DNA of 41,189 nucleotides, taken from assembly GCA_947475895.1 (NCBI GenBank), contig CANJMF010000006.1, positions 81,184 to 122,372 of the forward strand, written 5' to 3'. A program made the position numbers and the translations under genes. Below the pieces are notes generated by a model. That model did not search any database and was not told the origin of the DNA. It saw nothing but the letters and a program-made list of their open reading frames with translations. Positions 5,308-7,773 of this stretch are shown here, piece by piece; the stretch's first letter is position 1; the number at the start of each line of letters is the position of its first letter. Source of the stretch: Fidelibacterota bacterium (GTDB taxonomy: Bacteria > Pseudomonadota > Alphaproteobacteria > Rhodospirillales > Rhodospirillaceae).

Positions 5308-5871
5308 TCAATCGACGCGCTTCGGCATCCAGCGCGTCGCGCTGACCGGCTTGCCACTATGATTACGCATCACCTTCGGGCGCAGCACCTTACTCGCTGA
5401 AGGCGCATCTTGCGCGACAACGGCCGACTGTTTGCGCGTCAACCCTTGCGTACCGTAGAACTCAACCATGCCTTCGTAAGAAATTTCAGTGTTTGGCGCC
5501 GCAGCTAATGCATCCGCATAAGGTGGATGCCGTCGAATAAGCTTATTCAGATAATCCACCGAATGCGCACCGAACTGTCGCCACACACTATCGAGAATGT
5601 GACTGGGCACTTCGTCGATAGGCGTGAGATCGATCATCGGGCGTCCACGCGCAAAGGCACGAAAAAGTGTTGGCTCGACAGGCCCCTCGTCTGCGGCAAC
5701 GAACGTCGCAGGCATGAGCTTGGCACCGTGCTGCAACACGCCAAAATATGCCTGCGCGAGATACAGCAAACGATGCAGCTTCTGCGGCTGGAGGTATTCA
5801 TGATCCTCCATAGCGCGGTCGAGGAACCAGAACGCGACCTCGAAAGAAGATGGAACCGCTGTGGGACGCAT
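5308..5871 (-). CDS. Panacea-domain protein (DUF4065/SocA-like)
   Basis: A 187-residue protein whose first two thirds resemble the Panacea domain (formerly DUF4065). Visible features are FEVAFWFLDRA, LQPQKLHRLLYLAQ, and the DEGPVEPTLFRAF segment corresponding to the family's conserved GPV. Panacea proteins include SocA, the Caulobacter antitoxin and ClpXP adaptor, and many toxin-neutralising proteins. The C-terminal ~45 residues are basic and probably disordered. The ATG at 5871 is chosen over a GTG at 5928 because ACGAGGAGCG precedes it. No recognisable toxin gene lies beside it; the downstream partner is the DUF192 gene, with coupled stop and start. Its role here, antitoxin or housekeeping adaptor, is unresolved. 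Confidence 0.75.
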   Translation of the reverse strand: MRPTAVPSSFEVAFWFLDRAMEDHEYLQPQKLHRLLYLAQAYFGVLQHGAKLMPATFVAADEGPVEPTLFRAFARGRPMIDLTPIDEVPSHILDSVWRQFGAHSVDYLNKLIRRHPPYADALAAAPNTEISYEGMVEFYGTQGLTRKQSAVVAQDAPSASKVLRPKVMRNHSGKPVSATRWMPKRVD

Positions 5872-5998
5872 CGCTCCTCGTTTCTCCGCCTGCGCGGTGT
5901 CATCGCAAGCGTCAATGAATGGCGCCACGCATTTTTATGGCAACACATCCAGACTTATAAAGGAAAATGGAAAAGAGAAAAACGGCGCGTGGACGCTA

Positions 5999-6415
5999 TC
6001 AGCGGCCCGAATTAACGGACATGCCGATATCCGTTGAAACTTCAGCCGCGCCCATGAGCGCCTGATTAAACTCATAGATCGCAATGCCACGCTCGGCTTC
6101 CGCCGCCAGAGGCGTGGCGCCGCGCAAGGAGGTGGCAGCCTGCTCTTTCATGATCGTCGCGCCCACTTCATGCGACACCAATACACCGCCAAAGCTGACG
6201 ACGTGATCTTGATAGGGGCTAGAGCGCCGGCGACGGCGAAAATCTCCGCCTTCGTGATCTTCGTCGAAATTCCGTGCCTGATCGCGCGCCGGCGGCGCAT
6301 AAGCCTCTGCCAGCGGATCGACAAACTGCATAGACGACGCCACTGCACCGCGCGCATGCGCCATGCGTGTCGTCGAACCTACAATCCCGGAGTTTGCGAC
6401 CTGAGCTGTGCTCAT
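5999..6415 (-). CDS. Conserved-looking 138-aa protein of unknown function, possible CtrA target
   Basis: A 138-residue soluble protein. The N-terminal half is Ala/Ser-rich and probably disordered. A polybasic run (five consecutive Arg near residue 60) follows, and then a compact part begins with SPYQDHVVSFGGVLVSHEVG and ends with a predicted helix (GIAIYEFNQALMG). There is no signal peptide. I do not recognise the family. No strong Shine-Dalgarno precedes the ATG. A perfect TTAA-N7-TTAA box lies about 117-131 bases upstream at 6532-6546, so cell-cycle control by CtrA is possible. Confidence 0.65.
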   Translation of the reverse strand: MSTAQVANSGIVGSTTRMAHARGAVASSMQFVDPLAEAYAPPARDQARNFDEDHEGGDFRRRRRSSPYQDHVVSFGGVLVSHEVGATIMKEQAATSLRGATPLAAEAERGIAIYEFNQALMGAAEVSTDIGMSVNSGR

Positions 6416-6531
6416 GGCGCAAACACGCGATCTGCAGAAACGAATTTTTGAGAGTTCTTCACAGATCCTTTATATGGTTCGCCCGACGGCAGAGTCAACA
6501 AAAGCTGCAAAAATCCCTTTTGTTTCGAGTA

Positions 6532-6546
6532 TTAACGACTCATTAA
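6532..6546. promoter_or_regulatory. CtrA-type box TTAA-N7-TTAA
   Basis: TTAACGACTCATTAA is a perfect match to the alphaproteobacterial CtrA recognition pattern TTAA-N7-TTAA, and the second half is followed by C as in the extended consensus. It lies upstream of the minus-strand 138-aa gene and just beyond the stop of the 32-aa ORF. A single short motif can occur by chance, but intergenic placement upstream of a gene start favours a real site. Confidence 0.55.
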
Positions 6547-6550
6547 CACG

Positions 6551-6649
6551 CTAGGACTGGAGGGCAAAAGCCAATACCGACCATAGGTAAAGGGTGAAGA
6601 ATAAACCCAGCAAAGCCGTCGCTTCTTTCAAAAACCCGGATGCAGACAT
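6551..6649 (-). CDS. 32-aa single-pass membrane peptide, SidA-like SOS-induced candidate
   Basis: The frame reads ATG at 6649 to TAG at 6551 and encodes 32 residues: a short N-terminal part (MSASGFLKEA) followed by about 20 mostly hydrophobic residues (LLGLFFTLYLWSVLAFA) and a QS tail, so one transmembrane helix is predicted. AGGGGG lies 6 bases before the ATG. Directly upstream is a strong promoter with one LexA box in its spacer and a second at the predicted transcription start. Size, topology and SOS control all match SidA of Caulobacter crescentus, a 29-aa inner-membrane protein that blocks division through FtsW/FtsN after DNA damage. I claim similarity of design, not demonstrated sequence homology. 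It falls below common ORF length cut-offs and would usually be left unannotated. Confidence 0.75.
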   Translation of the reverse strand: MSASGFLKEATALLGLFFTLYLWSVLAFALQS

Positions 6650-6668
6650 TGTTGACCCCCTAAATAAT

Positions 6669-6683
6669 GTTCGTTATTTGTTC
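6669..6683 (+). promoter_or_regulatory. LexA (SOS) box 1, GTTC-N7-GTTC
   Basis: GTTCGTTATTTGTTC is a perfect alphaproteobacterial LexA direct repeat. It covers about +2 to +16 of the predicted minus-strand transcript, where bound LexA would block transcription of the 32-aa ORF. Confidence 0.8.
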
Positions 6684-6691
6684 TCGTCGCT

Positions 6692-6720
6692 AATAGAACA
6701 AAGTGGGAACAAGTTGTCAA
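6692..6720 (-). promoter_or_regulatory. Sigma-70-type promoter overlapping LexA box 2
   Basis: On the minus strand TTGACA (6720-6715) and TCTATT (6697-6692) are separated by exactly 17 bases. The spacer and start of the -10 contain GTTCCCACTTTGTTC (6710-6696), a second perfect GTTC-N7-GTTC LexA box. Transcription would start near 6685 and run into the 32-aa ORF with a leader of about 36 bases. The -10 matches the consensus at 4 of 6 positions. The boxes are 38-79 bases upstream of dusA on the other strand and could affect it too, but the fit to the minus-strand promoter is much better. Confidence 0.78.
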
Positions 6721-6747
6721 GCGCTCTTCTAACCCTTAGGGGATGCC

Positions 6748-7773
6748 ATGCTTTCGCAACCGGTCCCTGAATCGCAAAATGCCCCCGCGCATCGCTTTTG
6801 CGTGGCCCCGATGATGGACCGCACGGACCGGCACTGCCGCTACTTGCTACGGCTGATGTCGCGTCACGCACGCCTTTATACCGAGATGATCACAGCCGCC
6901 GCCCTGACGCATGTGGTCGATCCGCGCCGCTTTTTAGATTTCGATCCCTCGGAGCACCCGCTTGCACTCCAACTGGGTGGAAGCGATCCAGGCCGAATGG
7001 CCAAGGCTGCCAGCCTTGGCCAGACTTGGGGGTATGACGAGATCAATCTCAATATTGGCTGTCCAAGCCCCCGCGTGACCGTGGGACGTTTCGGGGCCTG
7101 CCTAATGACGGAGCCGGCCCTGGTGGCGGATTGCGTACGTGCCATCGGCGCGGCCGTGACGATTCCGGTTACAGTCAAAACACGCATCGGCGTCGACATG
7201 CACGACAGCGATCAGTTCTTAGACGATTTCGTCGGTACGGTTTCGGCCGCCGGCTGCGACGTTTTTATGATCCATGCACGCAAAGCTTGGTTAAAGGGCC
7301 TGAGCCCTAAAGAAAATCGGGAAATCCCGCCGCTTAACTACGACCGCGCCGTTCGCTTGAAACGCGCCTTTCCTCATTTGACCGTCATTTTGAACGGCGG
7401 CCTCACGCGCGCCGAAGAGGCTCTCGCATCGATACGCACGACCCCAGCTTTAGACGGCGTGATGGTGGGCCGGGCCGCTTACGATACGCCGTTTCTGATG
7501 GCTGAAATCGATCGTCTTTTCTTTGATCATGCGCCCACGCCTCCCAACCGCGCAGCCGTTGCCGAAGCTTATGTCCACTACGTCGAACGCAGCGTCGCAA
7601 GCGGAGTAAGCCAGCACTTGGCTTTACGCCATATCTCGGGCTTGTTTCACGGGTTGCCTGGCGCCCGCGCATGGCGGCGTGCCGTCTCGCAAGTTTGCCA
7701 AGCCACTGCGCCCCTGTCGGATCTTATCCAACTCGCCTATATCCTCGAGAAAGGCGAACCCCTTGCCGCATAA
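6748..7773 (+). CDS. dusA: tRNA-dihydrouridine(20/20a) synthase DusA
   Basis: A 341-residue flavoprotein that reduces uridine 20/20a in the D loop of tRNA with FMN and NADPH. The TIM-barrel start VAPMMDRTDRHCRYLLR, the catalytic-cysteine motif NIGCPSPRV (Cys near 104) followed by GRFGACLM, the KTRIGVD segment, MIHARKAWLKGLSPKENR and LNGG-MVGRAAY are all DusA signatures. Length is normal. AGGGGATGCC precedes the ATG. The following DUF1045 gene starts 26 bases downstream and may be cotranscribed. Confidence 0.97.
   Translation: MLSQPVPESQNAPAHRFCVAPMMDRTDRHCRYLLRLMSRHARLYTEMITAAALTHVVDPRRFLDFDPSEHPLALQLGGSDPGRMAKAASLGQTWGYDEINLNIGCPSPRVTVGRFGACLMTEPALVADCVRAIGAAVTIPVTVKTRIGVDMHDSDQFLDDFVGTVSAAGCDVFMIHARKAWLKGLSPKENREIPPLNYDRAVRLKRAFPHLTVILNGGLTRAEEALASIRTTPALDGVMVGRAAYDTPFLMAEIDRLFFDHAPTPPNRAAVAEAYVHYVERSVASGVSQHLALRHISGLFHGLPGARAWRRAVSQVCQATAPLSDLIQLAYILEKGEPLAA

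Follow-up and report, generated by a model that had tools for sequence, protein, structure and literature searches.

The SOS division inhibitor studied in alphaproteobacteria is SidA of Caulobacter crescentus, and SOS-induced hydrophobic micropeptides are also known from E. coli, where TisB and DinQ target the membrane and are each paired with an antisense RNA. SidA has a published length of 29 residues; both it and DidA, also from Caulobacter, are described as leaving divisome assembly intact and as probably holding the FtsW/I/N subcomplex in an inactive state, and SidA is suppressed by mutations in ftsW or ftsI (PMC4211646). In a 2026 paper on YneA, models that are not of high confidence place SidA on TM7 of FtsW (PMC13396833). 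DidA, which we liken to the peptide studied here by description, is a small transmembrane division inhibitor reported to act on FtsN/FtsW (PMC4211646), but it is SOS-independent and induced by DriD. YneA (Bacillus), SosA (Staphylococcus) and ChiZ (Mycobacterium), again likened by description, are SOS-induced membrane division inhibitors as well, but are larger and have extracellular parts (a LysM domain in YneA); YneA is reported to bind FtsW (PMC13396833). Among the titles and opening lines of abstracts listed from the open-licence literature, none reports SidA relatives outside Caulobacter.

The window, by which we mean the whole 41,189-nt stretch of DNA analysed, carries on its minus strand a short ORF that the initial annotation had likened to sidA on the grounds of size, topology and LexA control. 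As can be seen in Table 1, the 32-codon hydrophobic frame and the AGGGGG motif 6 nt before its ATG were both found as described, and the single hydrophobic helix that had been claimed is matched by a predicted structure consisting of one helix (residues 3-31, mean pLDDT 94.8). From its composition, the peptide would be a single-pass inner-membrane micropeptide. Searches against the Pfam, NCBIfam and PHROG models gave no match to the peptide.

Table 1. Features of the peptide locus, in window coordinates
Feature	Position	Strand	Basis and remarks
Putative promoter TTGACA-17-TCTATT	6692..6720	minus	sequence and conservation; -35 at 6720-6715, -10 at 6697-6692
LexA box 1, GTTC-CCACTTT-GTTC, exact	6696..6710	minus	between -35 and -10, final base overlapping the -10 hexamer
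LexA box 2, exact GTTC-N7-GTTC	6669..6683	plus	GAAC-AAATAAC-GAAC when read on the minus strand, hence opposite in orientation to the peptide
AGGGGG, ribosome-binding-site-like	6656..6661	minus	6 nt 5' of ATG 6649-6647, read from sequence
ORF, 32-aa peptide with a predicted single helix (MSASGFLKEATALLGLFFTLYLWSVLAFALQS)	6551..6649	minus	32 codons, conservation, selection, predicted helix
dusA (tRNA dihydrouridine synthase A)	6748..7773	plus	NF008774, 463 bits (cut-off 269); divergent, outside the peptide unit

The peptide was searched for in 61 genomes, comprising the source genome and 60 relatives, and a match at E<=1 was obtained in 33 of them. It was present in 17 of the 18 sampled congeners (E<=5.4e-7) and in 11 of 18 other sampled members of the same family (E<0.01), some sampled family members giving no match at the thresholds used. 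In all 30 listed loci the frame starts with ATG, and 27 encode 32 residues as called. Synonymous change dominates: over 406 pairs drawn from 29 family sequences of 32 codons each, pN/pS was 0.33, with values of 0.05-0.23 for the four closest pairs and pS near saturation in the remainder. Column entropy in the same 29 sequences was 0.83, 0.43 and 1.44 bits at codon positions 1, 2 and 3, respectively. Since the ORF is conserved in relatives and under purifying selection, sequence comparison confirms it as a real, selected gene, and a chance open frame is ruled out. Decay of the ORF with persistence of the boxes, which the initial annotation had named as evidence against its proposal, was not the pattern seen; in the relatives the frame is intact and the boxes are retained.

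Upstream of the ORF, the TTGACA-17-TCTATT promoter with a perfect GTTC-N7-GTTC box in its spacer has every element at the place claimed for it. The second box is likewise perfect, but it is inverted relative to the peptide. A sigma-70 consensus scan of positions 6380-6800 called zero promoters on either strand, so the case for this promoter rests on conservation; read from the sequence, the leader would be at most about 45 nt long. The contention that such an arrangement is hard to get by chance gains little from one box alone. The 3.3-Mb genome contains 96 exact GTTC-N7-GTTC matches compared with 104 for the reversed pattern, and the window contains 3 compared with 1.52 expected, a number reached in 20 of 100 shuffles; a single exact box therefore says little. 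The contention did hold for two boxes that together span 42 bp ahead of a conserved ORF, a configuration repeated in relatives and, by sequence, far beyond chance. Exact copies also lie just upstream of lexA in the source genome and upstream of ORFs that we take to be recA and imuA-like, and GTTC-N7-GTTC is on this sequence evidence the LexA box of the source genome. One further exact LexA-type box (G000:C4:181004-181018; L280, 1705) lies about 174 nt 5' of an ORF that presumably corresponds to mraZ, with which the division and cell wall cluster usually begins; this placement may be due to chance.

Across the 30 listed loci, the exact forward box was found in 29 and the exact inverted box in 28. 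We then pooled the loci found in relatives, in the order, in the class and in Caulobacterales, which gave 167 whose ORF encodes 22-40 residues. The genomes concerned are related and the loci not independent; L149 and L150, being duplicates, had been removed beforehand, whereas the evident false matches L238 and L242 were retained. An exact box within 160 nt upstream was present at 114 of the 167 loci (34/35, 42/82 and 38/50 by set), and 66 had at least two. In the controls, 5 of 1806 flank windows carried an exact box, as did 0 of 17 profile matches lying inside long frames, which we deemed false. Among the 53 loci lacking an exact box, 37 carry GTTG-N7-GTTC in one orientation or the other, compared with 5 of 1976 background windows, a variant that was first spotted in these same loci and counted afterwards, making this count post hoc. 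One GTTG-N7-GTTC operator, GTTGCTATTTTGTTC, recurs letter for letter in 14 loci (the variant is seen at L154, L158, L159 and L163, among others, and at L269), and in one genome with a GTTG-type box at the peptide, lexA carries a GTTG box alongside an exact one. Neither type of box was found at 16 of the 167 loci. Of the 82 exact boxes that precede these ORFs in the GTTC orientation, 47 have TTGAC 4-5 nt ahead of them, compared with 1.1% of background 14-mers. LexA control of the peptide gene is well supported by these comparisons, from which we infer LexA occupancy and induction by DNA damage.

The family extends well beyond the close relatives. With a 25-sequence profile, 113 of 297 genomes of the window's order matched at E<=0.1, many of the frames being 26-36 residues long, and the combined 45-sequence alignment is nearly ungapped, with the pattern M-x4-[FY]-x-K-[ED]-F-x-A-L-x-x-L-F-x-x-x-Y-x-W. 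One member, boxed and beside dusA, comes from a genome (G638) that we take to be Rhodospirillum rubrum. Class-wide searches matched 20 of 385 genomes (A1; 11 of 22 matches inspected, apart from the window's own locus), 19 of 289 (A3; 16 of 20 inspected, the other four being known places) and 12 of 367 (A7; 6 of 13 inspected, two more being known places). Boxed members beyond the window's order fall in the families labelled f76, f29, f89, f88 and f151. A1 missed a boxed SidA-like ORF in G414 that A7 recovered, so a lack of matches in other genomes carries little weight. Further short membrane ORFs with boxes, in families f151 (L417, G185) and f89 (L248, G243), are possible outliers of the same family. 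A tblastn search of plasmids with the window peptide, a very short query, gave zero matches.

The surroundings of the gene vary. Among 169 loci, 52 lie next to dnaE (always downstream on the same strand); the neighbour is a thioesterase gene in 44 (always downstream and convergent, with a 4HBT domain in the one tested), dusA in 40 (always upstream and divergent) and another gene in 33. Promoter boxes and coding part travel together across the dnaE, thioesterase and dusA positions. At the window locus itself, a 138-aa ORF without a Pfam or NCBIfam match lies directly 3' of the peptide on the same strand (5999-6415, minus), and a SocA/Panacea antitoxin-like domain scoring below the Pfam cut-off (20.9 compared with 25.7 bits) lies at 5308-5928, minus.

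The comparison with SidA was borne out beyond size and control, a chain of profiles joining the peptide's family to genuine SidA. The 45-sequence profile was run against 200 genomes from the order to which a Marinicaulis genome belongs, which we take to be Caulobacterales, and gave 61 matches in 53 genomes at E<=1, mostly false. Of 23 matches inspected, we discarded 19 that were false or lacked proof; the remaining four are short frames, with an exact box at L321, L324 and L325 and a box bearing one mismatch at L326. A profile built from these four and two class-search members matched 131 of 348 genomes of the same order at E<=0.1. We inspected 50 loci from this search (30 matches listed and 20 chosen by hand, four being seeds of the profile), and 38 had an exact box. 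Many of the ORFs are exactly 29 residues long and follow M-x-R-x-A-R-[ED]-x-x-A-[LF]-x-S-V-x-x-F-V-W-M. The NCBIfam model for the cell division inhibitor SidA, NF033228, matched all 12 of the 29-mers tested, the first at 72 bits (cut-off 35). In C. crescentus, sidA is listed as CCNA_02004 (PMC11034885) and CCNA_02005 as an inosine-uridine preferring nucleoside hydrolase (PMC3667746). A nucleoside hydrolase gene lies divergently upstream in 16 of the 169 loci, and at L351 Pfam confirms both the nucleoside hydrolase and the dnaE neighbour. Because of the NF033228 matches and this shared neighbour, the 29-mers beside dnaE are identified, by sequence, as SidA.

Aligned with SidA by hhalign, the 45-row profile gave a probability of 63.9 (P 6.6e-5). 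When SidA columns were permuted within the N-terminal and membrane parts separately, 0 of 1000 permutations reached the score of 19.2 (best 16.4), and two permutation modes, run 100 times each, likewise stayed below it (best 17.8). Restricting the profile to the 14 rows that belong to the window's own family lowers the probability to 22.2; the remaining rows give a higher score, 20.4. Intermediates, 30-34 residues long, match both the Rhodospirillales and the SidA sides (94.5 and 94.6), although some were recovered with the Rhodospirillales profile, so that their similarity to it is partly circular; 7 of the 8 (including L051, L249, L337, L341 and L343) lie beside dnaE or before its start. NF033228 gave no match to the window peptide at E<=10 (cut-off 35 bits) and matched 0 of the 45 profile members and 0 of the 8 intermediates, and we therefore use the term SidA-like rather than SidA for a family that is probably homologous to it. 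Both have a short single helix (32 aa here, 29 aa in SidA), LexA boxes upstream (two exact boxes at the window locus) and an N-terminal [KR][ED]xxAL pattern that leads into a helix in which aromatic residues are conserved. They differ in the distance from the conserved Glu to the Trp (14 residues here, 12 in SidA), in the longer C-terminus of the window peptide and in their neighbours, which are dnaE and a nucleoside hydrolase for SidA and dusA for the window peptide (a 4HBT thioesterase in other families). Distant homology of the peptide to SidA is well supported by these comparisons.

It could be argued that the boxes serve the divergent dusA, whose start is 98 nt from the peptide ATG, and that the ORF is an accidental open frame. 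Among 22 hand-picked genomes, chosen mainly for lacking the peptide beside dusA and of which 20 contain DusA, an exact box within 420 nt of dusA was found in 4 of 5 with an adjacent peptide and in 1 of 15 without one. The exception, the relative G008, does have an exact box before dusA while its own boxed peptide lies 3.8 kb away. In the first 35 loci, dusA is divergent to the peptide in 24, and in the other 11 the peptide is not beside dusA and every one still has an exact box. Codon-level selection on the ORF also contradicts an accidental frame. The boxes follow the peptide; we rejected dusA as their owner and consider this explanation very improbable. In two congeners (L004 in G016 and L008 in G008; see also L386), the gap between peptide and dusA measures 1.6 and 3.8 kb and includes a long ORF, which in G016 we take to be transporter-like.

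The main alternative to divisome action is that the peptide depolarises the membrane in the manner of TisB or DinQ, lowering the potential and arresting growth without acting on the divisome. Its size, hydrophobicity and LexA control are the same as theirs, and DinQ is described as a toxic single-transmembrane SOS peptide (PMC3567139). Against this, the peptide family is related to SidA by profile, the leader would be short, and there is no sign of an antisense partner: in scans that are weak for this purpose, no consensus promoter was found on either strand in the interval given above and no Rfam family was found in 5900-6900, novel RNAs being outside the reach of such scans. We regard a TisB/DinQ-like action as unlikely. 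The peptide might instead be an SOS-controlled micropeptide with another target, such as a membrane protease, kinase or transporter, tied to SidA by descent only or by convergence of short helices. For helices of 30 residues, profile similarity says little about the target, and the strict SidA model goes unmatched; but the N-terminal pattern is common to both families and none of the 1000 permutations reached the SidA score, and we judge another target improbable too.

The reading that we favour, and consider likely, is that the ORF encodes a LexA-controlled single-pass inner-membrane micropeptide, a distant homologue of SidA that probably acts as a SidA-like brake on division at FtsW/FtsI/FtsN. 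For the window peptide itself we infer induction, membrane insertion, an FtsW/FtsN target and division arrest. With LexA bound at the two operators over the promoter, the gene would be off; upon DNA damage LexA would be removed and the peptide made from the short leader. Once the divisome has assembled, the helix would probably dock on its septal wall synthase complex (FtsW/FtsI/FtsN), and the docked peptide would hold back constriction until repair is complete.

SidA-like ORFs of 32-33 aa without an exact or GTTG-type box were also observed in a prophage-like operon (L160 in G647, L166 in G627 and L185 in G558) and, box-less as well, in predicted viral contigs (L419, L420 and L421). The prophage-type ORFs lie downstream of a phage DNA primase gene (phrog_1139), and at L160 a GapR-like gene (PF10073) and an ORF with an ASCH domain come after the SidA-like ORF. 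A SidA-like ORF is present at 3 of 80 viral loci with related primases, and a tblastn search of phage records with a prophage copy, a very short query, found no match.

On the best reading of these comparisons, LexA-controlled micropeptides form a wider family in alphaproteobacteria, in which SidA is one branch and the window peptide represents the Rhodospirillaceae branch. We lean slightly towards the broader view that this family is old, has settled in no fewer than three genome positions (next to dnaE, to a 4HBT thioesterase gene and to dusA) with its operators kept, and provides a SidA-type, FtsW-directed checkpoint as a common SOS division brake of these lineages, and that prophages of one genus took up a box-less copy, which shares an operon with primase and GapR-like genes and may serve to stop host division during phage growth. 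The wider family is unrecognised by Pfam, NCBIfam and PHROGs, yet occurs in many Rhodospirillales genomes, including an apparent R. rubrum. Such peptides are too short for gene finders, and a LexA operator can flag them. The family offers concrete genes with which an SOS division checkpoint can be tested, and its natural variation could map how a helix of ~20 residues switches off FtsW.
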